A stretch of 64,000 bases of DNA from Fundidesulfovibrio magnetotacticus (lineage in GTDB: Bacteria; Desulfobacterota; Desulfovibrionia; Desulfovibrionales; Desulfovibrionaceae): the NCBI RefSeq assembly GCF_013019105.1, contig NZ_BLTE01000006.1, forward strand, positions 124,001-188,000, given 5' to 3'. The position numbers were made by a program, and so were the translations under genes. Under the pieces are notes generated by a model. The model searched no databases, was not told the DNA's origin, and was given only the letters and a program-made list of their open reading frames with translations. Below are positions 4,972 through 21,753 of the stretch, in pieces. Position 1 is the first letter of the stretch. Each line of letters opens with the position of its first letter.

Positions 4972-6504
4972 ATGCACCACATCGCCAGGTCGCTCGCGCC
5001 GCTTCTGCTGGCCGTCCTCCCGGCGGCCCTGGCCTGGGGCGTGGTGCACGCCAGCTTCGGGGCGTCCCTCACGGACTTCATGCCCCACTTCGACCTCGAC
5101 CAGTTCCCCTACTGGCGCGAGATGGCCTCCTTCGCCGCGGCGGGCTTTTCCGGCGGGAACTACGGGATCAACGACACGACCTCCGTCCTCAAGGGCTTCG
5201 GCCCGCACGGCGTGGCGGCGCCCATCTTGTACGGCTCCTTCTACCGCCTCCTGCCGGAGTTGGGTTTCGCCCTGATCCCCGTGGTCAACCTGGGGCTCAT
5301 CACCCTTGGCCTGGGCTTCCTGCTCTGGAAGGAGCGCGCCGACACCGGCGCGTGCCTCCTGCTGGCCCTGGGCGTGGCCCTCTATCCGCCGGTGCTCCTC
5401 TTCGCGCCCTCATCCTTCCAGGACGGGCTGCACATGGCCGGCGCGCTCCCCCTGGCCTGGGGCTTCATCCGGCTCATGGAGGCCAACGCCGCCGGAAAAC
5501 CGGACCGCGTCGCCGCACTCTGGACCGGCGCGCTGCTCCTGATCCTGTGCTTCGTGCGCTACACCTGGGCCGTGTGCCTGGTGCCCTACGCCTACGCCGT
5601 GCTGAGCGGGCGGCCCCGGCGGCTGCTGCTGGCCGTGCTGGCGGGCGGCGCCGCCGGCCTGGCCGTGGTGTGGACGTTCCATCTCTTCGTGCCCGTCTGG
5701 TACGCCTCGCCCGAGGCCCAGGTGTTCCTGGGCGGCTCTGGCGGGGCTGCGGCGGGCCTCTGGGGGCGCGCCGCGCGCAACCTCTCTCAGTTGGTGGACG
5801 TGGACGGCAACCTCCGGGCCAGCGCCCTGCTCTCCCTGGATCTGGCCCTGGCCCTGGTGGCGTGCCTGGGCATCTGGCTGGCCGGATGGAAACGCACCGG
5901 CCGCGCATTCTCCATCCCCGCGCTGCACCGGGAGGCCCTGCTGGCCGTGTCCGCCGGCCTGCTGGGGCTCTTCGTCATGAACACCGTTGCCTGGGTGGGC
6001 AACGGCATGAACATGGCACGGCTCTTGAGCGCCCACTACCTCTTCTGCCTGCCCCTGGCGGTGCGCTTCCTGCCGTCCCGGGTCCTGCACCCCCTGGTGC
6101 TCTACGGTGCGCTGCTCTTGCCCTCGAGCCTGGCGTACTACCAGTACCAGCACTACCCGGCCTACCGCGACGCGGCCGTACGCCCGCGCGTTGAGACCCT
6201 GCGCCAGGAGCTTTCCGAACACCTGCGGGAATGGAAAAGCGGCAACCCATGGGACGAGACCATCGCCCTGCACGTGTCGGGCCCTGACGCGGCCGCGGCC
6301 TGGCTGGCCGTGCCCCAGCGCTACGGCATCCAGTCGCTGACGCAAGGGACCATGCCCGTGCGCTCGCGCTTCGCCCTGCTCGCCGGAGACGCCCGAGAGA
6401 AAGCCCTGGCCTCGCCCCACTTCAAGGTGCTCAAGGAGACGAGCGTGGGCACGCTCTTCCTGAGGCCCCAGACCCCCGATTCCCCGGCCGGGAGCGGCGG
6501 ATGA
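4972..6504 (+). CDS. Polytopic membrane protein, probable GT-C type glycosyltransferase
   Basis: A 510-residue integral membrane protein with about ten hydrophobic segments and a soluble C-terminal tail (from about residue 395). The N-terminal periplasmic loop after TM1 carries acidic residues (PHFDLDQFPYWREM), as in lipid-linked-sugar GT-C transferases. Sequence motifs are too weak to name a family. The reading frame is open upstream to 4774, but GGAG 6 nt ahead of the ATG at 4972 and the hydrophobic start fix the N-terminus. It overlaps the next gene by 4 nt (ATGA) and opens a five-gene glycan operon. It could instead be a flippase- or polymerase-like protein. Confidence 0.8.
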   Translation: MHHIARSLAPLLLAVLPAALAWGVVHASFGASLTDFMPHFDLDQFPYWREMASFAAAGFSGGNYGINDTTSVLKGFGPHGVAAPILYGSFYRLLPELGFALIPVVNLGLITLGLGFLLWKERADTGACLLLALGVALYPPVLLFAPSSFQDGLHMAGALPLAWGFIRLMEANAAGKPDRVAALWTGALLLILCFVRYTWAVCLVPYAYAVLSGRPRRLLLAVLAGGAAGLAVVWTFHLFVPVWYASPEAQVFLGGSGGAAAGLWGRAARNLSQLVDVDGNLRASALLSLDLALALVACLGIWLAGWKRTGRAFSIPALHREALLAVSAGLLGLFVMNTVAWVGNGMNMARLLSAHYLFCLPLAVRFLPSRVLHPLVLYGALLLPSSLAYYQYQHYPAYRDAAVRPRVETLRQELSEHLREWKSGNPWDETIALHVSGPDAAAAWLAVPQRYGIQSLTQGTMPVRSRFALLAGDAREKALASPHFKVLKETSVGTLFLRPQTPDSPAGSGG

Positions 6505-7055
6505 CCGGCCGCCGGACCGCTCGGGCGCTCTACGCGCTGGCCATGGCCGTCGCCGTCTGGGCGGGCACGGCCTGGTACGGGGGGGGATTCCTCCACGACG
6601 CGTGGTGCCTTTTCGCCCGCGAACTGCCCGTGGAGCACGCCGGCCAGGACAGGCTGCTGGCGTGCAGCAACGTGGAGCAGGAAATCATCGGCCAGTCCGC
6701 CTTGCGCGACGCCCCCACGGACAACCGCGAATGGCGCGTGTTCGAGCGCTCCGGCCCCCTGCCGGGCAGCCTCCTGGTGCGCGCCAGGCTCACGGCGCCC
6801 CGTTTCCTCTTCTATCCGCGCTTCTCCGGTCCCGGGGACCGGCTTGTCATTTCCCAGGTGATCGGCAAGGATAGAAAAATTCTGTACGACCAGCGCGGCC
6901 CGGCCCCCGGGTGGACCCCCGTGGGGGCCATCCACGAACTCTGCGTCGGCTGCGCGGACCAGGGCTGGAGCAGGCCGGGCACCCCCGTGGACCTGGAAAT
7001 CGTCCTGGAGGGCGGCGCGCAGCTCTGGCACAAGGACGCGTTCATCTTTTTCTGA
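6501..7055 (+). CDS. Membrane-anchored protein of unknown function in glycan operon
   Basis: A 184-residue protein with an N-terminal signal-anchor (about residues 6-27) and a soluble, probably periplasmic, beta-rich remainder holding four cysteines (CLF, ACSN and a CVGCAD pair). Its ATG overlaps the stop of the membrane glycosyltransferase gene, so the two are translationally coupled and probably work together. No family is recognised. The CxxC-like CVGC might bind a metal or form a disulfide. Encoding just ahead of nucleotide-sugar genes suggests a part in assembling or modifying a surface glycan. Confidence 0.75.
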   Translation: MTGRRTARALYALAMAVAVWAGTAWYGGGFLHDAWCLFARELPVEHAGQDRLLACSNVEQEIIGQSALRDAPTDNREWRVFERSGPLPGSLLVRARLTAPRFLFYPRFSGPGDRLVISQVIGKDRKILYDQRGPAPGWTPVGAIHELCVGCADQGWSRPGTPVDLEIVLEGGAQLWHKDAFIFF

Positions 7056-7068
7056 GGACCCTCCTCCT

Positions 7069-8076
7069 ATGACCGACATCGACAAGGACATCCTCCCCGC
7101 CTTCGCGGGCAAGCGAGCGCTCATCCTGGGCGGCCTGGGCTTTCTGGGCTCCAGCCTGGCCCTGCGCCTGGCCGGGGCAGGGGCGAAGGTCATGGCCGTT
7201 GACGCCATGATCGACGAATACGGCGGCAACCTCTTCAACATCGAGCCCGCCCGGGACGCCATCCAGGTCAACTTCTGCGACATCCGCGACGCCTCGGCCA
7301 TGGAATGGCTCGTGCGCGACCAGGACTACGTGTTCCACTCGGCCGGCCAGGTCTGCCACCTGAAGAGCCTCTCGGACCCCTACCCCGACGTGGACATCAA
7401 CATCCGCGGCACGGTGGTGGTCATGGAGGCCCTGCGCAAGGTGAACCCCCGGGCCAAGGTGGTGAAGCTGGGCTCGCGCGGCCAGTACGGCCCGGTGCTC
7501 ACGCTCCCGGCGGGCGAGGACGTGGTGCCCCGGCCCAAGGGCATCTACGAGATCTCGCTCCTGGCGGCCGAGCACATCATCCAGTCCTACCTGAGCGCCC
7601 ACTCCATCCCCTGCGTGCTCACGCGGCTCACCAACATCTACGGCCCGCGCGCCCAGATGCGCCACAACCGGTTCTGCGTGGCCAACTGGTTCATGCGCCT
7701 GGCCCTGGAGAAGGAGCCCATCTCCGTGTTCGGCGACGGGCTCATCAAGCGCGATTTCCTCTACGTGGACGACTGCGTGGACGCCCTGCTGGCCCTGGCC
7801 GTGCATCCCGAGGCCGCGGGCGGGGTCTACAACATCGGGCACGACCGGCCCTCGCACTTCCGCGAACTGGCCGAGACCATCGCCCGGGTGGAGCCGGGGG
7901 CGAGCTGGCGCTACACCCCCTTCTCGGCCGAACGCAAGGCCCAGGAACCCGGCGACTTCTATTCCGACATCACCAAGATCCGCACCCTCACGGGCTGGCA
8001 GCCGCGCGTGGATCTGGAGGAAGGCGTGCGCCGCACCCTGGACTACTACCGCCAGCACAAGGCGCGGTACTGGTGA
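7069..8076 (+). CDS. NAD-dependent epimerase/dehydratase (extended SDR), catalytic Lys replaced
   Basis: A 335-residue extended short-chain dehydrogenase. The Rossmann motif GGLGFLG is at residues 21-27, followed by an Asp-ended beta strand (VMAVDAMI) for NAD. The substrate-side motifs NIYGP and IKRDFLYVDDCVDAL and a GVYNIGHD loop mark nucleotide-sugar dehydratases or epimerases. The usual YxxxK is Y160-E-I-S-L164: the lysine is replaced by leucine while the flanking LAAEH is kept. It follows GAGGA and overlaps the acyltransferase start by 1 nt. It probably prepares a 4-keto or epimerised sugar nucleotide for the aminotransferase and acyltransferase in the same operon, if it is still catalytic. 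Confidence 0.9.
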   Translation: MTDIDKDILPAFAGKRALILGGLGFLGSSLALRLAGAGAKVMAVDAMIDEYGGNLFNIEPARDAIQVNFCDIRDASAMEWLVRDQDYVFHSAGQVCHLKSLSDPYPDVDINIRGTVVVMEALRKVNPRAKVVKLGSRGQYGPVLTLPAGEDVVPRPKGIYEISLLAAEHIIQSYLSAHSIPCVLTRLTNIYGPRAQMRHNRFCVANWFMRLALEKEPISVFGDGLIKRDFLYVDDCVDALLALAVHPEAAGGVYNIGHDRPSHFRELAETIARVEPGASWRYTPFSAERKAQEPGDFYSDITKIRTLTGWQPRVDLEEGVRRTLDYYRQHKARYW

Positions 8077-8654
8077 TGGACGCGCCCGGCTTCTTCGTGC
8101 ACCCCAAGGGCCTCTGCGAAAGCGCTCGCGTGGGCCAAGGCTCGCGCGTGTGGGCCTTCGCCCACGTGCTCCCCGGCGCGGAGATCGGCCGGGACGCCAA
8201 CATCTGCGACTTCGTGTTCGTGGAAAACGACGTGGTGCTGGGCGAGCGCGTCACGGTGAAGTGCCACGTGGCCCTCTGGGACGGCCTGCGCGTGGGCGAC
8301 GACGTGTTCATCGGCCCCGGCGTGTGCTTCACCAACGACAAGAACCCGCGCAGCAAACGCTACAAGACGCCGCTGCACACCATCATCGGGCGCGGGGCCT
8401 CCCTGGGCGCCGGGGCCGTGATCCTGCCCGGGATCGAGATCGGCCAGTACGCCCTGGTGGGCGCGGGCGCCGTGGTCACGCGCGACGTGCCACCCTTCGC
8501 CCTGGTCACCGGCAATCCCGCCAGGCAGCGCGGGCTGGCCTGCGTCTGCGGACGCCCGCTGGCGCGCGACGGCGAACTCCTAAAATGCCCCGGCGGCTGG
8601 CAGGGCCAGGCCCCCTCCCCGGACATGGACTGCCCCGCATGCGAACCATCCTGA
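8076..8654 (+). CDS. Hexapeptide-repeat sugar N-acyltransferase (WbpD/WlbB-like)
   Basis: A 192-residue left-handed beta-helix acyltransferase. The imperfect [LIV]GxxxxI repeats run from about residue 17 to 145 (VGQGSRVWAFAHVLPGAEIG; LGAGAVILPGIEIG; VGAGAVVTRDVPP), ending in the family signature TGNPARQRG. The C-terminal tail holds CVCG, one further Cys and CPAC, a small zinc-ribbon-like knuckle also seen in WlbB-type enzymes. These acetylate an amino group on UDP-sugars using acetyl-CoA. The gene starts within the stop of the SDR gene and overlaps the next gene by 16 nt. Together with the DegT domain downstream it implies synthesis of an N-acylated amino sugar. Confidence 0.9.
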   Translation: MDAPGFFVHPKGLCESARVGQGSRVWAFAHVLPGAEIGRDANICDFVFVENDVVLGERVTVKCHVALWDGLRVGDDVFIGPGVCFTNDKNPRSKRYKTPLHTIIGRGASLGAGAVILPGIEIGQYALVGAGAVVTRDVPPFALVTGNPARQRGLACVCGRPLARDGELLKCPGGWQGQAPSPDMDCPACEPS

Positions 8655-10771
8655 AACGCCTGGCCGTGGTGGTGCCGGTCTACGGCAACGAGGCCAGCCT
8701 CCCCGAACTCTACGAGCGCATCGACGCGGCCACGCGCGGCCTGGACGTGGAGCTGACCCTCCAGTTCGTCAACGACCGCTCACCCGACGGCAGCCAGGCC
8801 GTGCTGGAAAGCCTTGCCGCGCGCGACCCCCGCGTGCGCGTGATCCTGCTCTCGCGCAACCACGGCTCCTTCACGGCCATCGCCGCGGGCATGGCCCAGG
8901 TGGCCACCCACGACGCCGTGGTGATCCTCTCCGCCGACCTCCAGGACCCCCCGGAGCTGATCCCGGAGATGGTCCGGCGCTGGCGCGCGGGCATTCCCGT
9001 GGTGCTCTGCTCCCGCAAGGACCGCGACGACCCCCTGGCCTCGCGCCTCTTTTCCCGGGCGTTCTGGTGGTCCTTCCGGCGCTTCGCCATGCCCGACATG
9101 CCACCCGGCGGCTTCGACTTCTGCCTCATCGACCGCCGCGTGGTCCGCGTGATCCTGGAGTCCTCCGAAAAGAAGACCAGCCTCGTGGGCCTGATCCTCT
9201 GGGCCGGATTCGAGCGCAGCGTCATCCCCTACGAACGCGCCGCGCGCAAGCACGGACGCAGCATGTGGTCCATGGGGCGCAAGCTGGCCTACGCCTTCCA
9301 CTCCCTGGTGGCCTTCAGCTCGCTTCCCATGAAGCTTTTCGCGGGCTTGGGGCTGGTGGTGGGGGCGGCGGGCGTGCTCATGGCCTTCTACGTGCTCCTG
9401 GCCAACCTTTTCGGCTGGATCACCGTGCCGGGCTGGTCGGCACTGATGCTCATGCAGACGGTGATCCTGGCCACGGTGCTCCTGGGCTTCGGCGTGCTGG
9501 GCGGGTACCTGTGGATCAACCTGGAGCAGACCAGACGCCGCCCGCTCTTCATCGTGGACAAGACCGTGGGGCAGGACCTGGCCCCGGGCGACCGCGACGG
9601 ACGCGTGGACTTCTTCAGCCTGGAGCGCGTCTCGGCCCCGGCGCGCCACGGCCTGCGCGAGGCCGCCCACCGGGCGCTGGCCTCCCGCCGGATCATCCTG
9701 GGGCCGGAGGTGGAGCGCTTCGAGCGCGCCTTCGCCCGCTACGTGGGCGCACCCCACGCCGTGGGCGTGGCCAACGGCACGGACTCCATCACTTTGGCCC
9801 TCTGGGCGCTGGGCGTGGAGCCCGGCAGCCTGGTGGCCGTGCCCGCGCTCACCGCGCCGCCCACGGCCGTGGCCGTGCTGCGCGCCGGGTGCGTGCCCCT
9901 CTTCATGGACGTGGACCCCCAGACGCTCCTCCTGCCCGCCTCGGCCGTGGCCCGTGCGGCGGCGCTGGGGGCCAAGGCCGTCGTCCCCGTGCACCTCTAC
10001 GGAAACCTCTGCGACATGCCCGCCATCCGCGCCGAGGCCGACCGCCTTGGCCTGGTGGTGATCGAAGACTGCGCCCAGTCCACCGGCTCCGAGGCCTTCG
10101 GCCGCCACTGCGGCACGTGGGGCCACGCGGCCTCCTTCAGCTTCTACCCCACCAAGAACCTGGGGACCTACGGCGACGGCGGGGCCGTGGTCACGGCCGA
10201 CCCGGGCGTGGCCCAGCGCCTGGTCTCCATGCGCTTCTACGGCCAGGACGCCTCGGGCGTGTGCGTGCTGCCGGGCATGAACTCCCGCCTGGACGAGATG
10301 CAGGCCGCGCTGCTTACCGAACGCCTGGCCTGCCTGGACGAGCACAACGCCCGGCGCGTGGCCGTGGCCGCCCGCTACGACCAGGCCCTCTCCGCCCTGG
10401 ACCCCGTGCCCGGCCAGCCCGGACGCGTGCCGCACCTCTATGTGGTGCGCCCGGACGAACGCGCGGAGTTCAGGCGCTTCCTCTCCGAGCGCGGAGTGGA
10501 CACGGGCGTGCACTACTCCCAGGCCCTGAACCGGCACCCGTATCTTGCGGCACAGGGCCGCGTCGCCCAAGCCCCGGAGTCGCAAGCCCCCGCCGCTCCG
10601 GGAACGGTCGCCGTGGCGCACGGCCCGGACGCCAGGAGCGCGGACGCCGGATGCCCCACGGCCGAGGCGGCAGCCGCGCGCGTGACGAGCCTGCCCTGCT
10701 ACCCGGGCATCCCCGAGGCCCACGTGGAGCGCGTGGTGGAGGCCTGCCGGGAGTGGGCCGCGCGCGGCTGA
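8639..10771 (+). CDS. Fusion of GT2 polyprenyl-phosphate glycosyltransferase and DegT/DnrJ aminotransferase
   Basis: A single 710-residue frame joins two enzymes. Residues 1 to about 300 are a GtrB/DPM1-like GT2: VVPVYGNEASLPELYE, FVNDRSPDGSQ, the metal-site ILSADLQDPPE, and two C-terminal membrane helices at about 230-252 and 270-294. Residues from about 337 are a PLP-dependent sugar aminotransferase (DegT/DnrJ/EryC1 family): ANGTDSITLALWALG, VIEDCAQSTG, and the PLP lysine K506 in FYPTKNLGTYGDGG. An Ala/Pro-rich insert of about 35 residues (about 640-676) interrupts the C-terminal domain. No stop or frame change separates the halves. The enzyme would make an amino sugar and transfer a sugar to a lipid carrier. 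Last gene of the operon. Confidence 0.9.
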   Translation: MRTILKRLAVVVPVYGNEASLPELYERIDAATRGLDVELTLQFVNDRSPDGSQAVLESLAARDPRVRVILLSRNHGSFTAIAAGMAQVATHDAVVILSADLQDPPELIPEMVRRWRAGIPVVLCSRKDRDDPLASRLFSRAFWWSFRRFAMPDMPPGGFDFCLIDRRVVRVILESSEKKTSLVGLILWAGFERSVIPYERAARKHGRSMWSMGRKLAYAFHSLVAFSSLPMKLFAGLGLVVGAAGVLMAFYVLLANLFGWITVPGWSALMLMQTVILATVLLGFGVLGGYLWINLEQTRRRPLFIVDKTVGQDLAPGDRDGRVDFFSLERVSAPARHGLREAAHRALASRRIILGPEVERFERAFARYVGAPHAVGVANGTDSITLALWALGVEPGSLVAVPALTAPPTAVAVLRAGCVPLFMDVDPQTLLLPASAVARAAALGAKAVVPVHLYGNLCDMPAIRAEADRLGLVVIEDCAQSTGSEAFGRHCGTWGHAASFSFYPTKNLGTYGDGGAVVTADPGVAQRLVSMRFYGQDASGVCVLPGMNSRLDEMQAALLTERLACLDEHNARRVAVAARYDQALSALDPVPGQPGRVPHLYVVRPDERAEFRRFLSERGVDTGVHYSQALNRHPYLAAQGRVAQAPESQAPAAPGTVAVAHGPDARSADAGCPTAEAAAARVTSLPCYPGIPEAHVERVVEACREWAARG

Positions 10772-11579: not shown

Positions 11580-12698
11580 TCAGCCCTTGAAGACCCCCCG
11601 CACGGTCTCGATGACGTAATCGCATTCGGCGTCGGTCATCTTCGGGTAGAAAGGCAGGCTGATGGTGCGGTCACCGATGGCCTCGGCGTTGGGGAAGTCG
11701 CCGGGCTTGAAGCCGAAGGTCTCCCGGAACCATTCCAGCAGGTGGATGGCCCGGAAGTTCACGGCCACGCCCACGCCGGCCTGCTGGAGCGCCGGGAGCA
11801 GGGCGTCGCGCCGGGCGGGGTCCGCCCAGACGGTGTAGAGGTGGTGGCCGCTCTTGCCCACAACTTTGGGCCGTGCCACGTTCGTGCCCTCGAACCCCTG
11901 CTCGTAGCGTTTCCAGAGGGTGTTGCGCCTGGCCCAGAGCGCGTCCAGGCGGCCGAGCTGGTCCACCAGCAGGGCCGAGTGGATGTCGTCGAGGTTGCAC
12001 TTCCAGCCCAGGGTGAGCATGTCCCAGTGCTGGTAGAGGCCATGATAGCGCCCGGCCGCGTTCTTGCTCATGCCGTGCAGCGAGAGGAGCTTGGCCTTGC
12101 GGGCCACCTCCTCATGCCGGGTGATGAGCGCCCCGCCCTCGCCGCAGGCCAGGTTCTTGGTGGCATAGAAGCTGTAGCAGGCCGCGTCGGAGAGGTGCCC
12201 CGGGCGGACACCGTCGCGCTCGCCCTCCACGCAATGGGCGCAATCCTCGACAAGGAAGAGCTTGTGCTCGTCGGCCAGGACGCGCAGGGCCTTCATGTCC
12301 GCCATGACGCCGTAGAGGTGCACGGGCAGGATGGCCTTGGTGCGCGGGGTGACGGCGCGCCGGGCGGCCTCGGGATCCATGCAGCCGGTCTCGGGGTCCA
12401 CGTCCACGAGCACGGGGGTGGCCCCGGCGTGGACCACGCAGGTGGCCGAGGCGATGAAGGTCATGGCCGGGACGATCACCTCGTCTCCGGGGCCGACGCC
12501 CAGGGCCATGAGGGTCATCTGCATGGCCGCCGTGCAGGAGTTCACGGCCAACACGTTGGGCACGCCGGTGTATTCGGCGAAGCGGCGCTCGAATTCGGCC
12601 GTGACGGGGCCTGTGGTCAAAAAGACCGAATGGAGCACTTTGACGACGTTGGCGATGTCCTGCTCGTCGAGGTTGTGCCGGTAGAATTCCACCTTCAT
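11580..12698 (-). CDS. DegT/DnrJ/EryC1-family sugar aminotransferase
   Basis: A 372-residue PLP enzyme of the nucleotide-sugar aminotransferase family. It shows the substrate and PLP-phosphate region AVNSCTAAMQMTLMALGVG, the cofactor Asp in LVEDCAHCVEG, the Schiff-base lysine in YSFYATKNLACGEGG, and the C-terminal LPFYPKMTDAECDYV. It converts a keto-sugar nucleotide to the 4- or 3-amino sugar using glutamate. It is the last gene of a five-gene minus-strand operon (GT2, methyltransferase, B12-radical SAM, GT-C protein, aminotransferase) and ends at a strong terminator. A second aminotransferase of the family is fused to a GT2 in the facing operon, so the two may act on different sugars. Confidence 0.93.
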   Translation of the reverse strand: MKVEFYRHNLDEQDIANVVKVLHSVFLTTGPVTAEFERRFAEYTGVPNVLAVNSCTAAMQMTLMALGVGPGDEVIVPAMTFIASATCVVHAGATPVLVDVDPETGCMDPEAARRAVTPRTKAILPVHLYGVMADMKALRVLADEHKLFLVEDCAHCVEGERDGVRPGHLSDAACYSFYATKNLACGEGGALITRHEEVARKAKLLSLHGMSKNAAGRYHGLYQHWDMLTLGWKCNLDDIHSALLVDQLGRLDALWARRNTLWKRYEQGFEGTNVARPKVVGKSGHHLYTVWADPARRDALLPALQQAGVGVAVNFRAIHLLEWFRETFGFKPGDFPNAEAIGDRTISLPFYPKMTDAECDYVIETVRGVFKG

Positions 12699-12783
12699 GG
12701 GAGGCCTCTCGGCGCGCGGCGCGCTGGCCGCGCGGTTACGGGTCGGTGGGGCGCGACGCCGGGCCTGTCAGGGCGGCCGTTCG

Positions 12784-15441
12784 TCACGGTTTGATCCTCA
12801 GGGTCACCTCGTGGCGGCCCGTCTGGAGGGGCACGGCCACGGTGTTGCCCGGCCCGCGCAGGACCCGGGCGGGTCGGCCGTCCACGTCGGCGATCCAGTG
12901 TCCGTGCCATGGAAGGGCGAACACGGCCTCTCCGGGGCCCGGCGTCTCCACGCGGGCGAAGGCCAGGCGCATGCCCAGGGCGGCGGGCTGGGCCTGTGGC
13001 TGGGGCACGATCTCCAGGGGCTCGGCCGAGACGGCGAGCACCGAACATGTCGCTCCGGGAGCGGCGGGGTTGATCTCGTAGCCGGCCTCGCGCCCGGGGA
13101 CGGTCCGGTAGGGCAGGTCCAGGGTCTGGCGTCCGGGACCGGCCAGCAGGGAGACCGGGCGCTCCCCGCCCTTGAGGAGCACGTCCATGGGGCCGTCGCA
13201 GTCCAGGACCAGGCGCACGCGCAGGAGGCCAGCCGGAACAGCGCCCTGTGCGGCGGGATCGTAGAGCGCGCCGAAGGGCTTGAGCCTGCCCCGGCCCAGC
13301 AGCCCTCCCCAGGAGCGCTCGCGGGCCTGCGTCGAACCGGGCGGCGGCGCGGGCAGAAAGAACACCCGGCCCTGGTAGCCCTGGTTGCGGTAGAGGGCCA
13401 CGCCTTGCGGCAGGGCCTCCAGGCCCGGCCCCTGGGCGGGCTCCAGGCGGTAGACGCCCGACTGGAGCACCTCGGAGCGGAAGGCGTCGTCCTGGAGGGC
13501 CAGTACGTACTTCACGCCCCAGAGGGTGAGCAGCTCGGGCGGAACCTGGTGCACGTAGGCCGGGGGCGCGGCCGGGTCGCGCAGGGCCGAGGTGAAGAGA
13601 CGTCCCGGCAGAGGCAGCACGGTGTCCGGGGTCTTGCCCAGAAGCTCCAGCCCAAGCGGGAACATGGAAAGCCCCCGATAGCTCAGGATGGTGAACTCCG
13701 GCTCGGCGTCGGCGCGCGTGAAGGTCCCCAGCGCCGCCTCGGCCGCGCCCGGGCCGGGAATATCCCCGGCGGCGGCGCCGTCCTTGCGGCGGTACACCGA
13801 ATAGATGTCGTCCTGGTAGAATCCGTAGGTTTCCCTGGGGAGACGGCTGCCGGTGTCCACGCGCAGCAGGGGCTCGTAGCCCGACGGTTCAGGGGTGCGG
13901 CGCACGGGGTCCAGGACCACGCCCAGGGCGAAGTCCGGACGCAGGGCATCCAGGTGCTCGCCCTGGTCGCCCGTGGGGACCAGGCGGTGGCGGAAGGGAT
14001 CGGCCATGAAACGGTCGGTGAAGCCCAGGTGTTCCTGGCGCGCCATGGGCACGCCCAGGGAGGCCCCGGCCGGGATGTTGTCGCGGACCCAGGCGTGGAC
14101 GCTCTGGCGGGTGGATGGTCCGCCCAGGAAACGCAGCACGGCCAGGGTGTCCGAGAAGGTGGCCAGGAGCACGGCCGCCACGCCGACAAGGCAGGCGGCG
14201 CGCGGAAGCGGGCCGCGCGCCGCGTCCCACAGCCATCCCAGAAGGAAGGCCACGAGCACGAGTGCCAGCACGGCCTGGGAATAGTAATAGTAGCTGAGCA
14301 CCAGCATGAGCTGCGCCCGGGCCAGCCACCACAGGAAAAGGCCGTTGCCGACGAAGAGCAGCAGGACCACGGCCTGGGCGGAGAGCCGGAAGCGCTCCGA
14401 GACCAAGCGCCAGAGGGCGAAGGCCAGGGCCGGGAGGACCAGGAGGTTCAGGGCCTGCCCCAGGTAGGGCTCAAAGTGGGTGAGGCGGTACCACGTCACC
14501 TCGGCGAAGGACTGGGGGAGGGGCAGGGCACCCGAATAGGCATGGAGCACGGAAGAATAGCGGGCGACGAAGCTCGTGAAGATCCTGGGCGCGTGCAGGA
14601 AGAGCGGGTTGGCGGCCAGGAAGGTGGCAAGCACCACGCAGCAGGCTTTGGCCGCCAGGATCAGGGCCTCGCGCGAGAGCCAGGGCAGGCCCCTGCGCCG
14701 CCGGGAAACGAAGAAGGCCGCCACGGCCAGGAGCCCGGCCGGGGCCAGGGTGAACTTCATGGAGAAGGCCAGGCCCAGGAAGGCGCAGGCGGTGAAGAGG
14801 TGGCGCGCCCGGCCGGAGCGCATGTGTTCGAGCAGGTTGAGCAGGGCCAGGAGGGTCATGGCCAGCACCACGCCCTCGGGCTTGAGGCGCAGCTCGTAGG
14901 CCGGGAGGAAGGGCATGGCAGCCAGGAGCCAGACGGCGATGGTCCCGGTGGCCTCCCGGTCGAAATTCCTGGCGATCCAGTAGACCGAGAGCGGCAGGAG
15001 CAGCAACACGACGAGCTTGTAGAGGGCGAAGAGCTGCCAGAGGGCGCGCAGCTCCTCGGGGTAGGCCACGTAGAAGAGGGGGTCGTCGCAGAGCTTCACC
15101 AGCCCGAGCTTCGCCCCCGCCCAGACCACGGCCCGGCCGCCGTGGAGCAGCGGCCCTCCGAAGTTGGTGCCTATGGAGAAGGTGTCCTTCACCTCGCCGT
15201 AGAGGCCCATGGCGTGTCCCATGGTCACCTGGGCGTCGTCCTCGTAAGTGTTCACGGGCACGAGCTTGGAGGTGTTGAGCAGGTAGCCCTCGGCGTCGGC
15301 CACGCCGTGCATGGATCGAATGGCCCAGAGGTTCACGGCGGCGAACACCGCCAGGCACAGGAGGATGTGCCCGGGCACGCCGAGGTCGAGCCCGGGGACG
15401 CGCTGGGCGTCCGGCGGAGGACGTTTTCCGAGGCGGATCAT
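12784..15441 (-). CDS. Large polytopic membrane glycosyltransferase (GT-C/PMT-like) with C-terminal soluble domain
   Basis: An 885-residue protein. The N-terminal half holds about 11 membrane segments. The first periplasmic loop contains acidic residues (NTYEDDAQVTMGHAMG) as expected for dolichyl/undecaprenyl-phosphate-sugar dependent GT-C enzymes. Residues from about 460 to the end are soluble and beta-rich, including a C-terminal stretch typical of bacterial YfhO/PMT-like proteins (FALPWHGHWIADVDGRPARV). The ATG at 15441 is 5 nt after the radical SAM gene's stop. A much longer open frame extends upstream but overlaps that gene out of frame. It probably adds a lipid-linked sugar, supplied by the GT2 of the same operon, to a surface glycan or protein. 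Confidence 0.85.
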   Translation of the reverse strand: MIRLGKRPPPDAQRVPGLDLGVPGHILLCLAVFAAVNLWAIRSMHGVADAEGYLLNTSKLVPVNTYEDDAQVTMGHAMGLYGEVKDTFSIGTNFGGPLLHGGRAVVWAGAKLGLVKLCDDPLFYVAYPEELRALWQLFALYKLVVLLLLPLSVYWIARNFDREATGTIAVWLLAAMPFLPAYELRLKPEGVVLAMTLLALLNLLEHMRSGRARHLFTACAFLGLAFSMKFTLAPAGLLAVAAFFVSRRRRGLPWLSREALILAAKACCVVLATFLAANPLFLHAPRIFTSFVARYSSVLHAYSGALPLPQSFAEVTWYRLTHFEPYLGQALNLLVLPALAFALWRLVSERFRLSAQAVVLLLFVGNGLFLWWLARAQLMLVLSYYYYSQAVLALVLVAFLLGWLWDAARGPLPRAACLVGVAAVLLATFSDTLAVLRFLGGPSTRQSVHAWVRDNIPAGASLGVPMARQEHLGFTDRFMADPFRHRLVPTGDQGEHLDALRPDFALGVVLDPVRRTPEPSGYEPLLRVDTGSRLPRETYGFYQDDIYSVYRRKDGAAAGDIPGPGAAEAALGTFTRADAEPEFTILSYRGLSMFPLGLELLGKTPDTVLPLPGRLFTSALRDPAAPPAYVHQVPPELLTLWGVKYVLALQDDAFRSEVLQSGVYRLEPAQGPGLEALPQGVALYRNQGYQGRVFFLPAPPPGSTQARERSWGGLLGRGRLKPFGALYDPAAQGAVPAGLLRVRLVLDCDGPMDVLLKGGERPVSLLAGPGRQTLDLPYRTVPGREAGYEINPAAPGATCSVLAVSAEPLEIVPQPQAQPAALGMRLAFARVETPGPGEAVFALPWHGHWIADVDGRPARVLRGPGNTVAVPLQTGRHEVTLRIKP

Positions 15442-15446
15442 GCCCG

Positions 15447-16874
15447 TCAGCGGCAGAAGAGGCTCTTGAAGAGCCCGATGCCCGACTTGGCCAGGGAGAG
15501 GAATTCGCCCGGCGAGCGGATGGACAGCAGGTGTTTGAGCACCATGCGCGGACGCATGTAAAAGCCCTTGTAGGCCGCCTGGTGCAGCTCCAGGAGCCGC
15601 TCGGGGCTGATGCCCCCGGGCACGTAGACGGGCTTGTCCAGGAAGTTGAACTCCGGGATGATGCCGTGCAGGAAGTACTCCGGATCCTGGAAGGAGCCGG
15701 TGCGCAGGGCGCGCTTGTAGTCCAGTGTGCCGGGCAGGGGCAGGAACATGGTGAAGGTGGCGATGTCGATGTCCAGCTCCTGGGCGAAGGCGATGGTCTG
15801 GCGGATGTCCTCTTCGGTCTCGCCGGGGAGCCCGACCATGAAGTAGCCCCGGATGGGGATGCCCACTTCCTGGGTGATGCGCACCTTCTCGCGGATCTCC
15901 TCCTTGGTGATGCCCTTTTTCATGTGGTCGAGCATGCGCTGGCTGCCGCTCTCGATGCCGTAGGCGATGAAGGAGCAGCCCGCCCCCTTGAGGGTGCGCA
16001 GGATCTCGCGGTCCACCAGGTTGATGCGCGACTCCACGTTCCAGGTGAGCCCGAACCCGCCCCGGTTGAGGCTCTCGCAAACGTTGAAGAGCAGCTCCTT
16101 GTCGGAGGTGAAGTTGTCGTCCCAGACGGAGACGTCGCGCGCGCCGTAGCGGTCGCGCAGGAGGAAGAACTCCTCCACGATGCGCTCCAGGCTGAAGTGG
16201 CGCACCCGGGAGCCGAAGGTGCGGTGGTCGCAGAAACTGCAGATGCCCGGGCAGCCGCGCGAGGTAAACATGGAGTGGGAGGGATAGTTGCGCGAACGCG
16301 CCGGGCTGGTGGAATAGAGGTGCATGGGCAGCAGATCGCGCGCGGGCAGGGGGAGCAGGTCCAGGGGGTCCACCAGGGGGCGGCGGCCGGTGTGGCGCAC
16401 CTTGCCGTCGTCCAGATAGGCCAGCCCCTTGATGCCCGAAGGGTCCTTGCCGCTCCGTGCCAGGTGTTCCACCAGCTCCAGCATGGTGATCTCGCCCTCG
16501 CCAGTGACCTCGAAATCCGCCCCGAAGCCCAGCAGGTGGCCCGGCATGGCCGTCACGTGCGGTCCGCCCGCCACGATGGGCGCGCGCACCCCTTCGCGCC
16601 GCGCGGCCTGCATCAGCTCAATGCAGCGCGTGGCGTAGGACGACAGGGCCGTGAGCCCCACCACGTCGTAGCCGTGCATGGAGCGCGCCACCTCTTCCAG
16701 GGGTCTGGGCTGGGCTATGCCGTCATAAACGGCAGGCTCGTGGCCATGGGCCCGCAGATAGGAAGCGATGTAGGCCACGCCAAGGGAGGGCAGCTTGCTG
16801 GCGGTGGACTCCGCCCCCTTGGTGAACAGCTCGCTGGCGGCCAACGGCGGGACGATGAGCAGGACTTTGGCCAT
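15447..16874 (-). CDS. B12-binding-domain radical SAM protein
   Basis: A 475-residue enzyme with an N-terminal cobalamin-binding Rossmann domain (VLLIVPPLAASE; VVGLTALSSYA; GGPHVTAMPG) and a radical SAM barrel. The [4Fe-4S] motif is C208-x3-C212-x2-C215 in RGCPGICSFCDH. Further conserved features are VWDDNFTSD and IAYGIESGSQRMLDHMKKG. The B12-binding DxHxxG motif is not evident, as in many base-off class members. Relatives include BchE, hopanoid methylases and sugar or lipid C-methyltransferases. Placed between a GT-C protein and a SAM methyltransferase, it may methylate or rearrange a glycan or its lipid carrier. The substrate is unknown. Confidence 0.92.
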   Translation of the reverse strand: MAKVLLIVPPLAASELFTKGAESTASKLPSLGVAYIASYLRAHGHEPAVYDGIAQPRPLEEVARSMHGYDVVGLTALSSYATRCIELMQAARREGVRAPIVAGGPHVTAMPGHLLGFGADFEVTGEGEITMLELVEHLARSGKDPSGIKGLAYLDDGKVRHTGRRPLVDPLDLLPLPARDLLPMHLYSTSPARSRNYPSHSMFTSRGCPGICSFCDHRTFGSRVRHFSLERIVEEFFLLRDRYGARDVSVWDDNFTSDKELLFNVCESLNRGGFGLTWNVESRINLVDREILRTLKGAGCSFIAYGIESGSQRMLDHMKKGITKEEIREKVRITQEVGIPIRGYFMVGLPGETEEDIRQTIAFAQELDIDIATFTMFLPLPGTLDYKRALRTGSFQDPEYFLHGIIPEFNFLDKPVYVPGGISPERLLELHQAAYKGFYMRPRMVLKHLLSIRSPGEFLSLAKSGIGLFKSLFCR

Positions 16875-16892
16875 GGTTTTTTCCCGGGCCGC

Positions 16893-17564
16893 CTAGCTGG
16901 CGGCCCCGTCGTCGTCGCGCCCGAGCAGCACGAGTTTCTTGCGCGCCATCACCGGCCAGGGGGTCAGGAAGGCCGCGTTGTCGAAGGATTCCTCGGACAA
17001 CACCCGCAGGCCCGGGGTGGACCGGAGCATCGCCAGGAGTTCGGTCCCCGGCCGCACGTGTTCGCCCTCCTCCATGCGCAGGATCAGGCGTTCCAGCCAG
17101 CCGGGATGGGGCCTGTTGTCGTAGTCGACGACTACCAGGCGTCCGTCGCGGTCCAGGAGCCGGGCCGCGTGGGCCAGCACCTGGCGGGCCGCGTCGTCGG
17201 GGATGTGGTGGAGCGTGCCGCACAGCAGGATGAAATCGAAGCGGTGCGCGGAGGGGTCCAGAGAGCGGGGGTCGGCCGCCTCGAAGCGCATGTGGGGCCG
17301 ATTCGCGTAGCGTTTGCGGGCGCTCTCCACGGCGGGCAGGTCCACGTCCACGCCCAGATACAGGCATGGCCTGCGTGCGAAGTGAACACTGTCGATGCCC
17401 ACCGAGCAGCCGATCTCCAGCACGCGCCGCTGGCCGGCATAATGCTTGAGGATGTGGCGTCCCCTGTCGAAGAATCCCGCGAAAAGATGCTGGGCGGCCA
17501 GCCAGAGCCTGGGCAGCCGGGTCTGGAGGGAGCCCCCCCCGGCGGGGATGGACGGGGCGCTCAT
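16893..17564 (-). CDS. Class I SAM-dependent methyltransferase
   Basis: A 223-residue Rossmann-fold methyltransferase. Motif I is VLEIGCSVGIDSVHFA (about residues 47-62), the acidic SAM-ribose residue follows in YLGVDVDLPAVESA, and motif IV-like FDFILLCGTLHHIPDD is present. The family acts on many small molecules. The start ATG overlaps the stop of the upstream GT2 gene (ATGA), so translation is coupled, and 18 nt separate it from the radical SAM gene. A sugar or lipid-linked sugar substrate is inferred from this context. Confidence 0.9.
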   Translation of the reverse strand: MSAPSIPAGGGSLQTRLPRLWLAAQHLFAGFFDRGRHILKHYAGQRRVLEIGCSVGIDSVHFARRPCLYLGVDVDLPAVESARKRYANRPHMRFEAADPRSLDPSAHRFDFILLCGTLHHIPDDAARQVLAHAARLLDRDGRLVVVDYDNRPHPGWLERLILRMEEGEHVRPGTELLAMLRSTPGLRVLSEESFDNAAFLTPWPVMARKKLVLLGRDDDGAAS

Positions 17565-18571
17565 GCGGCGGGGTCCCGCGGGGTGCGGCCCAGGGATTCC
17601 CGGGTTTCCATGATCACCCAGGGCTGCTGGCGTGAGGTGTTGGTCTTCACGCGGCTGACCATGGCCGCCAGGATGAAAAAGAACGCGGCCGAAAGCCCCA
17701 TGGAGAAGATGTTGAGCATGACCACCGTGGTGATGCCCATAGGCACCGGGGTGCCCGAGAAGCGCAGCACCAGCATGCCAGCCCCCAGGAACACCAGCAC
17801 CACGAAGAGCACGCCCATGGCCGCCAGGATCAGTCGCATGGGCAGGTCCGAATGCAGGATGAAGGCCCGGAACGAAAGGGCCACCAGCCCCTTGAGCGCC
17901 ACCTTGGACGAGCCGCTGGCGCGGGCCTGGCGGTCCAGTTCGATGGACTTCTGCCGGAAGCCCACCGCAGCCCTCAGGCCCGGGAAGTAGGGGTTGGCGT
18001 CGGCGCTCTCGACGAGAAGGCCCGCCACCTCCGTGCGGATGATGGAAAAGGTGCCGGCGTTGCGTGGAATGTGGAAGCTCGCGGACATGGAGAGCAGCCG
18101 GTAGAACACCGGGGCGCACCAGCGCATCACCAGCCCGTCGTAGCGCTCGGCGCGCACGGCGTAGACCACGTCCTGCCCTGCGCCGTGGTCCAGGAGCAGG
18201 GAGAAGTCCTCTGGACGGTCCTGCAGATCGCCGTCGATGACGCCCACCCACGCTGCCCCCAGCTCGCGCGCCCAGGCCGCCGCGCAGTGGCATCCCGCCA
18301 CCACGGCTGGCTGATGGCCGAAATTGCGCGAAAGGCGCACGAGCTTCACCGGCGCGGGATAATCGTGCAGATAGCGCTCCACGAGGGTCACGGTCTGGTC
18401 GGTGGAGCCGTCGTCCACCACCACCACGCCCTTGACGTCCGGCCCCACGCCCCGGGCAAGGCGGTCGAAGAAGGCCTCCACATTGGATTCCTCGTTGTAG
18501 AGGGGCACAACCACCACCAGGGAGCGGTCGTCGGCGGAGGGGCTGCGGTTGCTGCTGGGCGTCATGGGCAT
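17561..18571 (-). CDS. GT2-family polyprenyl-phosphate glycosyltransferase (GtrB/DPM1-like)
   Basis: A protein of about 336 residues with the GT2 core: VVVVPLYNEESNVEAF, VVVVDDGSTDQT, and the metal-binding VGVIDGDLQDRPED. Two long membrane helices follow near residues 240-265 and 277-302, as in GtrB/ArnC enzymes that load undecaprenyl phosphate with a sugar. The reading frame is open to 18790, but the first 70 codons look non-coding. Met codons at 18571 and 18565 just before the domain are the likely starts, though neither has a strong ribosome site. First gene of the minus-strand glycan operon, divergent from the GT-C gene at 18784. Confidence 0.88.
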   Translation of the reverse strand: MPMTPSSNRSPSADDRSLVVVVPLYNEESNVEAFFDRLARGVGPDVKGVVVVDDGSTDQTVTLVERYLHDYPAPVKLVRLSRNFGHQPAVVAGCHCAAAWARELGAAWVGVIDGDLQDRPEDFSLLLDHGAGQDVVYAVRAERYDGLVMRWCAPVFYRLLSMSASFHIPRNAGTFSIIRTEVAGLLVESADANPYFPGLRAAVGFRQKSIELDRQARASGSSKVALKGLVALSFRAFILHSDLPMRLILAAMGVLFVVLVFLGAGMLVLRFSGTPVPMGITTVVMLNIFSMGLSAAFFFILAAMVSRVKTNTSRQQPWVIMETRESLGRTPRDPAA

Positions 18572-18783
18572 GGGCGTGGAGGGTGCGGCTGCCGGGTTGC
18601 AGGGCTGCGCGCCGCGTATGGCGCTCGCCATTCCGATCCGGCCATCTACCACGATCCCCCCGGAAGCGCAACGAGGCGCGCCGACGCGCCATCCCTCGCC
18701 ATGTTGCCTTTTTTCATGCCCGGCGCTAGTCAGGGCCAACCCGGACGCCCCGCGCGCCCGCGAATTCCAGGCGGCCTGCCCCC

Positions 18784-21753
18784 GTGACACATCCTCAGCA
18801 ACATTCCGGCGACCGGATCCTCATCGCCCTCCTCACCCTGCTGGCCGCCTGCCTGCGCCTGAGCCACCTGGGACAGCCTTCCCTCTGGTGGGACGAGTTC
18901 ATCACCCTGGGCGTGGCCCTGGAACCCCTGGCCCGGAGCCTGCGCACCCTCGCCTTCCAGTCCGCCTCGGACTACGGCGTCGAACTCTTCCCGCCCCTGG
19001 CCCACCTGATCACCCGCGCGACCCTCCTGGCCGGGCACGCCGACTGGCTCGTCCGGCTGCCCGTGTCCCTGGCGGGCATCGCCACCGTCCCGGCCTGCTT
19101 CGCGCTCCTGCGCCGCCCCCTGGGCAGGACCAGCGCCTTCGCCGCCGCGCTGCTCCTGGCCCTGTCGGTGTACCACGTGCACTTCAGCCGGGAGCTTCGG
19201 CCCTACGCCCTCTTCATGCTGGAGAACGCGCTCTCCATGGCCTGTCTGCTCCGCCACCTGGAGCGCCCCCGCCTGGGGACCGCGCTCGGCTTCGCGGCCC
19301 TGGCCCTGGCCATGCTCTACACCTCCTACATGGCCTCCACGCTTCTGGCGGCGCAGTTCCTCTTCGCGGGGGGCGTGCTGGCCCTGCGCGCCGCACGGGG
19401 CCGCGACGCCCGGCGGGAGGCCTTCCGGGCAGGCCTCCTCCTGGCCCTGGCCCTGGTCCCGGCCGCACTGGCCTACCTGCCCTGGCTGCACGCCCAGGCG
19501 CGCGTGCTCACCCTCCTGCGAGACCCGGGCTTCGTGCCGCCCCTGGACTGGGGCTTCGTGCTGCGCACCCTCCGGGAGTTCGCCGCCTTCGCCTACGTCG
19601 GCGATTTCCCCGCCTGGGCCCTCCTGGCCGCCCTGGGCCTTGCCGGAGCGGTTCTGGCCCTTCGCGAAAGGCGCTCGCGCCCCCTGGCCTGCCTGCTCCT
19701 GCTCTGGGCCGGGTTGCCGTGGCTTTCCATCGTGCTTGTCGGAGTGCGCATGGAGCTCTCCTCGCGCTACGTGTTCCCCACCATGCTGGCCTGCGTGCTC
19801 CTGGCCGGGCACGCCCTGGGCTGGACCGCCCGCACGCTCATGGACCGCCTGTTGCGCGGCGCCCGCTTCCCCCTGGCGGAAATCTCCCTGGCCGCCCTGG
19901 CCTGCGCGCTGGTCTCCATCCCCAACCTCCAGAGCCTGGACGCCTACTACGGCCGCGAAAGCTCCCACTACAAGGACCTGGCCGCCTGGTGCGCCGAGAA
20001 CCGCGACGACGCCGACCTCCTGCTCTTCGCCCACCCGCGTCAGCTCAAGCTGGTCTCGAACTGGTACGTGCCCGGGCTCCTGGACGAGGCCCGAGCCCTC
20101 GCGGGCAAGGGCTACCTGCGCGCCCTGCTCCTTGCGCCGGACTCCCTCGGCGCGGCCGCGCTGCCCGGGGCCGTGCACCGCGCGCGCATCGCCTGGACCG
20201 ACGTACTGCGCCTGGGCATCGCCCGCACCCCGGTGCGCCCCCTGATCCCAGACGCCACGGGCCTCTGCCGCTATGAGGACGACTTCTCCACACAGCGCTT
20301 CTACGAGGACGCCTTCGAGGCCCGCAACGCCGCCCCGTCCTTGGAGCAAAGGGTGCTCACGTCCTACGAACCGGCCCTGCCTGCCCGGGCCGTCTACCGG
20401 TTCCAGGCCCCCCCGGAGTCGCGACCCGCCCGCGCGTCCCTCACCCTGGAGCTGGTCCTCTACGCCACCAACCTCGCGGATTCCGACGGGGCCGTCTCCG
20501 TGTGGGTCCGCCCCGGCGACGGGGAGCCGCGACCCGTGGCCCGCGTGGAGGCCCGCGAACTGCGCGGCCAAACGCCCGGCCCGGACAGGAAGCTGCGCAA
20601 GACCATCTCCTGGCCCCTGGACGACGCAGTGCGCGGCGCGTCCGCCTTCGACCTGATCCTGGAGATCGATCCTTCCACGCGCGAGATGCCGCTCGAAATC
20701 TCCGCCCTGCGCCTGGAAGCCGCCCTGGACGGCCTGCCCCCGCCGCCCCAGGCCCTGCCCCAGGCGCTCCTGGACCAGCTGCCCCTCGCGCCCTGGACAC
20801 CCGGCGAACGGCTGGCCCTCTCCCGCGCCCTGCACGCCTTCGCCCTGGACGATGCGGCCCCCTTGGCAGGGACGTCACCCGCCTCCCTGCACCAGCGCTT
20901 CCTGGCCGAACACCCGGGCATCGACCCCGTGCGCCTGCTGGCGTACCCCGACGGAAGACCCGCCGCGGCCCTCTACGACGCCTCCCTGGCCGACCCCTTC
21001 GCGCCCCTGCCCGCAGGCGGCGAGACCCCGCTGGACGCCTGGCCGCGCAGCCCACGCGCCGTTCCGGCCCTGCGTCTGCGCGGACTCCTGGACCGCCCCG
21101 TGCTCCAGGCCGGAAACGCGCGCCTCTCCGTGGATGTGGTCAGCCCGCAGACCGGGACCCTGAGCCTGAACCTGGGCGGACGAGCGCGCCTGACCCTGGA
21201 GCCCCTCTTCACTCCCGGAAACCTGCCTCGCGGCATGGCCCTCTACGACGCGCGCCCGGCTGCCCGCGAAGAATGTCTGGTCTGCGACGGACCGCGCCCC
21301 TGTTCGGCCACCCTGGGCATCGTTACGGGGATGCCCGCCGGTCGCCTGCGCGTGCGGGCCTATCCGCGCGTGGAAGCGCGGCCCGACGGGACCAACATGG
21401 TCCGTGCCCTCGTTTCATTGGACGGCCTCTCCTGGCGGGAAATGGGACGCTTCCAGGGCTCGGGCTCCGGCCGCTGGGAAGGCCTCAAAGCCCCGCGCTA
21501 CTGGGAAACCGACCTGAACGGAGCAACCGGCGAAATCTTCGTGCGCTTCGAACTGGCAGGCTCCGGCGCGCAACTCTGGAGCGCGCCCGACGCCCGCATG
21601 CGCATCGACCTGGACCTGGACGCCAGAGCCGCCGCACCCCTCCAACTCCCAGCGTGGCCCCTGGCCGCCTGGACTTCCAATCCCAAAAGCCTCGAACTGC
21701 TCCTGTTGGAGCGCCCCATCGTTTTTCCCGATTGGCTGATGCGTTCGCGCTAG
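18784..21753 (+). CDS. Very large membrane glycosyltransferase (GT39/PMT-2-like) with C-terminal extension
   Basis: A 989-residue protein starting at GTG. The N-terminal part (about 370 residues) is polytopic and has the GT-C hallmark: an acidic WWDEFITLG motif right after TM1 (about residues 36-44), followed by HFSRELRPYALFMLE, as in ArnT-like lipid-linked-sugar transferases. A large soluble region of about 600 residues follows. Parts look like jelly-roll or carbohydrate-binding beta domains (LTLELVLYATNLADSDG and IFVRFELAGSGAQLWS). The domain layout is unusual and no family is recognised for the C-terminus. It is divergent from the minus-strand glycan operon and is followed by repeats, so it is probably monocistronic. 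Confidence 0.85.
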   Translation: MTHPQQHSGDRILIALLTLLAACLRLSHLGQPSLWWDEFITLGVALEPLARSLRTLAFQSASDYGVELFPPLAHLITRATLLAGHADWLVRLPVSLAGIATVPACFALLRRPLGRTSAFAAALLLALSVYHVHFSRELRPYALFMLENALSMACLLRHLERPRLGTALGFAALALAMLYTSYMASTLLAAQFLFAGGVLALRAARGRDARREAFRAGLLLALALVPAALAYLPWLHAQARVLTLLRDPGFVPPLDWGFVLRTLREFAAFAYVGDFPAWALLAALGLAGAVLALRERRSRPLACLLLLWAGLPWLSIVLVGVRMELSSRYVFPTMLACVLLAGHALGWTARTLMDRLLRGARFPLAEISLAALACALVSIPNLQSLDAYYGRESSHYKDLAAWCAENRDDADLLLFAHPRQLKLVSNWYVPGLLDEARALAGKGYLRALLLAPDSLGAAALPGAVHRARIAWTDVLRLGIARTPVRPLIPDATGLCRYEDDFSTQRFYEDAFEARNAAPSLEQRVLTSYEPALPARAVYRFQAPPESRPARASLTLELVLYATNLADSDGAVSVWVRPGDGEPRPVARVEARELRGQTPGPDRKLRKTISWPLDDAVRGASAFDLILEIDPSTREMPLEISALRLEAALDGLPPPPQALPQALLDQLPLAPWTPGERLALSRALHAFALDDAAPLAGTSPASLHQRFLAEHPGIDPVRLLAYPDGRPAAALYDASLADPFAPLPAGGETPLDAWPRSPRAVPALRLRGLLDRPVLQAGNARLSVDVVSPQTGTLSLNLGGRARLTLEPLFTPGNLPRGMALYDARPAAREECLVCDGPRPCSATLGIVTGMPAGRLRVRAYPRVEARPDGTNMVRALVSLDGLSWREMGRFQGSGSGRWEGLKAPRYWETDLNGATGEIFVRFELAGSGAQLWSAPDARMRIDLDLDARAAAPLQLPAWPLAAWTSNPKSLELLLLERPIVFPDWLMRSR

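Follow-up and report, generated by a model that had tools for sequence, protein, structure and literature searches.

How do a lipid-loading glycosyltransferase and a sugar aminotransferase come to lie in one polypeptide, and do they serve one pathway? The question is raised by a gene of Fundidesulfovibrio magnetotacticus that lies in a 64,000-nucleotide stretch of contig NZ_BLTE01000006.1 (assembly GCF_013019105.1, positions 124,001 to 188,000), which we refer to throughout as the window. On the forward strand of the window, at 8639-10771, a single open frame running from the ATG at 8639 to a stop codon ending at 10771 encodes, in 710 codons, a family 2 glycosyltransferase (GT2) resembling GtrB followed by an aminotransferase of the DegT/DnrJ/EryC1/StrS family. 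A first-pass annotation, made before any database search, had described an uninterrupted frame joining two families that are normally separate proteins, and proposed that the join channels an amino sugar to the lipid-loading step. We report a computational analysis of the fused gene, its relatives and its neighbours, in which comparison of sequences and structural modelling lead us to favour, with a probability of roughly 0.56, a genuinely bifunctional enzyme whose two halves work in a single extracytoplasmic glycosylation pathway.

Both halves of the protein are recognised by Pfam, which places Glycos_transf_2 (PF00535) at residues 10-149 (E = 1.7e-19, 70.8 bits against a cut-off of 23.3) and DegT_DnrJ_EryC1 (PF01041) at residues 341-650 (E = 7.1e-91, 305.6 bits against a cut-off of 19.8). 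An AlphaFold2 model of the whole protein, built with 43 sequences as input, has a mean predicted local distance difference test score (pLDDT) of 80.7 and a predicted template modelling score (pTM) of 0.64; the aminotransferase half lies mostly above a pLDDT of 90, and confidence is low at residues 298-317, 644-649 and 656-669, the last two segments falling in and just after an Ala/Pro-rich insert. The Pfam match and the helices modelled at residues 229-257 and 266-299 agree with the original description of a GtrB/DPM1-like GT2 with two membrane helices. The aminotransferase is likewise complete, as had been claimed, with a pyridoxal phosphate (PLP) lysine at Lys506, in the motif FYPTKNLG; this lysine (alignment column K191) and its EDCAQ/FSFYPTKNLG surroundings are invariant in all nine aligned aminotransferases. 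The insert noted at the outset does exist, although it is 27 residues long (640-666) and not about 35; it is found in none of the five other fusions described below and is specific to F. magnetotacticus.

That a sequencing or assembly artefact has joined two genes is scarcely credible. Genomes of the family (149), class (297) and phylum (395), in overlapping sets, were searched for strong matches, with at most seven, three and two candidates, respectively, scored per genome, and the fusion was present in six distinct genomes in total: that of the window (G000), G009 (whose contig is the same as that of locus L038), G050, G075, G094 and G297. These represent five of the seven genomes of the genus and one of the 14 of Solidesulfovibrio (G297), a small set of sulfate reducers. 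A pattern scan of genome contigs, which reaches close relatives only, returned one locus, in Fundidesulfovibrio agrisoli, taken to be the genome counted here as G009. In all six fusions the reading frame is free of internal stops, the junction between the halves is gap-free and the linker has the same length, so that the fusion is neither a chance event nor a read error, and the frameshift or missed stop near 9550-9660, for which the first-pass annotation had advised a check, can be rejected. Mean pairwise identity among the six is 75% over glycosyltransferase residues 7-228, 53% in the membrane helices and 50% in the linker, and 68% and 56% over aminotransferase residues 322-639 and 667-710.

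The same annotation had looked to relatives for two genes with a stop between them. A distant pair of this kind does occur in G138, a genome of the same family (L046 6310-8568, reverse strand): a glycosyltransferase and a DegT gene share a reading frame and are parted by one TAG stop, the following ATG standing 15 bases further along. Since it is only 28-29% identical and its glycosyltransferase bears the motif DADLQD, it is a different pair and not a split copy of the window gene. With the order and frame of the fusion, but two proteins and a canonical DADLQD glycosyltransferase, the G138 pair illustrates a possible starting point for a fusion of this type.

Outside cellular genomes, no phage record had one place covering 80% of the fused query, and the two plasmid records that covered it both carry separate genes (E limits of 1e-20 and 1e-30). 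None of 85 loci fetched from IMG/VR (the best 80 of 295 relatives, plus five from a second search) was fused. Four viral contigs of IMG/VR (L146-L149) carry a GtrB-like glycosyltransferase and an aminotransferase as separate frames of one locus. A published description of this fusion was not found among the matches listed, which consist of titles and the openings of abstracts and leave subscription literature mostly uncovered.

Is the glycosyltransferase half likely to be active? It matches GtrB (5ekp) at E = 9.5e-48 with phmmer, and the GtrB of Synechocystis (sll0501; 5EKP/5EKE) is likewise a GT2 with two C-terminal membrane helices and the residues D96, Q98, R122, R200 and D157. The fused protein keeps the metal-site residues D100 and Q102, and also D160, R126 and R203; in GtrB numbering, D43, D96, Q98, D99, R122, R125, D157, R200 and A216 are retained, and D94 is replaced by Ser (S98), K132 by Arg, A136 by Ser, Y140 by Trp, L212 by Lys and R290 by Ile (I293). 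Ten residues of GtrB are reported whose mutation abolishes activity, R122, R125, K132, A136, Y140, D157, R200, L212, A216 and R290 (PMC4728340), of which R122, R125, D157, R200 and A216 are kept in the fusion and the five others are changed. A literal DXD motif is absent, S98-A-D100-L-Q102 giving SADLQD (residues 98-103, window 8930-8947) for the DADLQD of GtrB. In PfDPMS the metal is reported to be bound by the second Asp of the motif and by its Gln, at the positions of Asp96 and Gln98 in GtrB, and in this archaeal enzyme the first Asp of the DXD contacts mannose and not the metal (PMC5526996). Because the first Asp touches the sugar and the metal ligands are kept, its replacement by Ser or Ala would fit a change of sugar and not a loss of glycosyltransferase activity. 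We file this half as a GtrB-like GT2 only, one that may work like a PfDPMS-type enzyme. GtrB has a cytosolic glycosyltransferase domain and ends after its second helix in a short C-terminal beta-hairpin (PMC4728340), without a second enzyme, whereas the fusion continues beyond this point, so that its aminotransferase half would be cytoplasmic.

At which carbon, then, would the aminotransferase act? The best phmmer structure match of this half is DesV, and in a Foldseek search of the PDB the top rank goes to WbpE and the second to a sugar transaminase of Archaeoglobus, with DesV fifth, WlaRG from 14th, ArnB 21st, perosamine synthase 25th and QdtB 29th; Pcryo_0616 also lies above ArnB, and some QdtB chains lie below it. 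The TM-score by target is 0.93-0.95 for WbpE, DesV, WlaRG and QdtB. DesV and WbpE act at the 3-position, and QdtB, WlaRG and Pcryo_0616 have 3-amino products by their PDB titles; all five are like the fusion in fold, sequence and PLP lysine, but are stand-alone proteins. Because of these nearest structures and the acetyltransferase encoded next door, amination is probably at C3, an assignment that carries some uncertainty. Pulling the other way, the best NCBIfam model is the 4-aminotransferase PseC (171 bits, under its cut-off of 423.5), followed by ArnB (163 bits, under its cut-off of 631), and ArnB and perosamine synthase share the fold, at the lower Foldseek ranks given above. The pathway of 4-amino-4-deoxy-L-arabinose (Ara4N) follows the same logic, in that a DegT enzyme, ArnB, makes the sugar and a GT2, ArnC, loads it onto undecaprenyl phosphate; both halves of the fusion match the ArnB and ArnC models, far below the curated cut-offs, and ArnB and ArnC are separate proteins.

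The two families are indeed usually separate, since five loci outside the group that carries the fusion encode them as close but distinct genes (a simple gene caller missed genes on some contigs, for which stop-to-stop frames were used instead). In G005 a short-chain dehydrogenase/reductase (SDR), an acetyltransferase, an aminotransferase and a glycosyltransferase follow one another, each in its own frame, and G655 has the same four functions as separate neighbouring genes. The aminotransferase frame of Phyllobacterium sp. A18/5-2 overlaps the next, glycosyltransferase, frame, which is followed by a single protein with an acetyltransferase part and a part that we label ketoisomerase-like from a reading of the sequence; the order in Azospirillum argentinense is glycosyltransferase, WxcM-like protein, aminotransferase. 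These four loci share with the fusion a DegT enzyme, a glycosyltransferase of the (S/A)ADLQ type and an acetyltransferase or WxcM-like protein, and the G138 pair is the fifth. The aminotransferase precedes the glycosyltransferase in three of the five (G005, G655 and Phyllobacterium), as two proteins in the reverse of the fused order. It follows from the five loci that the partnership of glycosyltransferase and aminotransferase is older and wider than the fusion and, because other bacteria encode the two as separate neighbouring genes, the join combines familiar enzymes in a new way and does not amount to a new kind of enzyme.

A third arrangement is seen in the Solidesulfovibrio genomes G025, G058 and G302, where the operon has a glycosyltransferase alone, 63-67% identical to the fused one, which extends no more than about 50 residues past the conserved part and has no aminotransferase adjacent. 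In Solidesulfovibrio carbinolicus a glycosyltransferase-only operon is borne on plasmid pDCAR1 (L064, NZ_CP026539.1), where genes for an IS5 transposase and a recombinase lie no more than 7 kb away. The glycosyltransferase tree leaves the fused and glycosyltransferase-only rows unresolved, and thus makes no call between loss of the aminotransferase and its never having been present. In the aminotransferase tree the fused enzymes form one group (support 100/100) whose neighbours are stand-alone enzymes from the same bacterial family (95/88), the tree being midpoint-rooted for drawing only; rows ownL004-ownL007 and G058 were left out, ownL004 being a fragment of the fused protein itself and the G058 row a distant aminotransferase. 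The group that accompanies the SDR elsewhere has 25 rows, or 24 different proteins, since one protein appears twice, as G655 and as sdrAT_L154. The simplest reading would be that another aminotransferase was recruited and then fused.

The fused gene belongs to a run of genes whose positions are collected in Table 1. The acetyltransferase gene lies directly upstream of the fusion in all six genomes; its product has as best PDB matches the N-acetyltransferase 7S43 and the WxcM-like 4MZU, QdtC being much weaker. WxcM and QdtC act on nucleotide sugars. An SDR is also encoded upstream of every fusion, directly before the acetyltransferase in four of the six, and is the obvious candidate for a source of the keto-sugar. 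Its family (window 7069-8076; L047, L152-L180) has a TRG(E/Q)YG or SRGQYG motif and, among 39 relatives, the position of the YxxxK lysine is N in 29, L in nine, T in one and K in none, with the Tyr present in all 39; a canonical SDR from L044, taken as a control, has the K. This SDR is matched at E <= 1e-80 in 46 of the 395 phylum genomes, that of the window included. In 29 other SDR loci that were fetched, a DegT frame lies in the flank of 24 (two run off the fetched stretch) and a glycosyltransferase match in none. Nothing relevant on lysine-less SDRs was found among the literature matches listed. Within the operon, the SDR may be more surprising than the fusion.

Table 1. Positions in the window of the fused gene, its parts and the genes upstream of it.
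Feature	Position	Strand	Basis or remark
Fused gene, GtrB-like GT2 + DegT/DnrJ/EryC1/StrS aminotransferase, 710 aa	8639..10771	+	
GT2 half, residues 1-299	8639..9535	+	Pfam, GtrB residue mapping
Predicted helices at residues 229-257 and 266-299, both assigned to the membrane	9323..9535	+	AlphaFold2
Inter-domain linker, residues 300-321, equal length in 6/6 fusions	9536..9601	+	Low pLDDT over 298-317
Aminotransferase half, residues 322-710	9602..10768	+	Nearest solved structures include DesV, WbpE, QdtB, WlaRG
Lys506 codon, PLP lysine in FYPTKNLG	10154..10156	+	
Ala/Pro-rich insert, 27 residues (640-666)	10556..10636	+	Alignment with the five other fusions
Hexapeptide acetyltransferase	8076..8654	+	Overlaps fused gene by 16 bases
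Extended SDR, epimerase/dehydratase-like, Leu for the YxxxK lysine	7069..8076	+	
184-aa protein, no known family; 34% identical to the gene at the same place in G302	6501..7055	+	
510-aa probable multi-pass membrane protein, head of the run	4972..6504	+	Candidate GT-C transferase, judged from sequence

FdtA, the 3,4-ketoisomerase (PF05523) that partners QdtB/FdtB-type aminotransferases, is encoded in 14 of 21 genomes tested. Among those with the fusion it is present in G075 and G297 and absent from G000, G009, G050 and G094, so that an FdtA-dependent route is unsupported for four of the five fusion-bearing genomes of the genus. The run of F. agrisoli also encodes an LPG_synthase_TM protein, a possible flippase. 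Downstream in the window, at 11580-21753, lies a second glycan cluster with a DegT aminotransferase (reverse strand), two PMT_2 membrane proteins, a second GT2, a B12-binding radical SAM protein and a methyltransferase; relatives of the radical SAM protein (window 15447-16874) are found near the module of SDR, acetyltransferase and glycosyltransferase in L038, L042, L045, L047 and L050.

The single frame, the two folds, most of the active-site residues, the inheritance of the fusion and the order of the genes are shown directly; from them we infer substrates, an order of reactions, an oligomeric state and a final glycan. The C-terminal PLP aminotransferase would convert a nucleotide-linked keto-hexose to an amino sugar, most likely at C3; the acetyltransferase encoded just upstream would N-acetylate it; and the N-terminal GT2, with its two membrane helices and cytoplasmic active site, would transfer the finished sugar to undecaprenyl phosphate, after which the loaded sugar would be flipped and used outside by a membrane enzyme of the GT-C type. 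DegT enzymes are generally dimers and, if the halves keep the tetrameric state of GtrB and the dimeric state of DegT enzymes, a glycosyltransferase tetramer would carry two aminotransferase dimers. We consider it quite unlikely, though worth stating, that such a membrane-anchored particle, with the lysine-less SDR and the acetyltransferase, delivers a 3-acetamido sugar straight to undecaprenyl phosphate by a route free of FdtA.

How far the halves cooperate is the point at which explanations diverge. The original proposal was channelling; a version in which the amino sugar is handed to the glycosyltransferase on the same particle and N-acetylated after loading or in complex with the acetyltransferase we judge improbable. 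It could draw on the retention of a physical fusion with a fixed-length linker in six genomes and on the 16-base overlap of the acetyltransferase gene with the fused gene in the window; against it, the acetyltransferase shows a similarity to WxcM and a weaker one to QdtC, enzymes of nucleotide sugars, the linker is modelled with low confidence and separate-gene versions exist. Because the acetyltransferase gene is directly upstream in all six genomes, the acetyl step probably falls between amination and lipid loading, which makes direct channelling doubtful and leaves the claim unsupported as stated; what the cell gains is likely to be co-localisation with a fixed stoichiometry and not direct hand-off. 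Unlikely too, but a more serious contender, is a polypeptide shared for co-expression and assembly only, with halves that differ in the sugar or the step they act on, and with an aminotransferase taken from another lineage. The grouping of the fused aminotransferases with stand-alone enzymes of their own family, apart from the SDR-linked group, agrees with this, as do the three genomes with glycosyltransferase-only operons; yet in four loci with the same type of glycosyltransferase, two of them in Alphaproteobacteria, the two genes are close neighbours with an acetyltransferase in the run, and these loci therefore point to one pathway.

The bifunctional reading must also bear several facts that weigh against it. 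Three Solidesulfovibrio genomes keep the SDR, acetyltransferase and glycosyltransferase with no aminotransferase adjacent, a distant DegT frame (35%) lying 5.7 kb downstream of the operon in G058, and the fused aminotransferases fall outside the group that accompanies the SDR elsewhere. Five GtrB residues, K132, A136, Y140, L212 and R290, have been replaced, and in all nine aligned glycosyltransferase relatives S or A stands where the DXD motif has its first Asp. FdtA is missing from four genomes, and the partner SDR, its possible replacement, is without the catalytic Lys. The 510-residue protein that opens the run has no Pfam match, and its AlphaFold model, with a mean pLDDT of 36, was discarded.

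As a naturally occurring join, the fusion provides good evidence for a single pathway shared by a DegT aminotransferase and a GtrB-like loader, and it helps to assign the substrates of the separate-gene versions in other bacteria. The S/A-ADLQ form of the motif is a candidate marker of enzymes that load amino or acetamido sugars, and the lysine-less SDR family, often encoded beside a DegT gene, would mark a step in amino-sugar synthesis.

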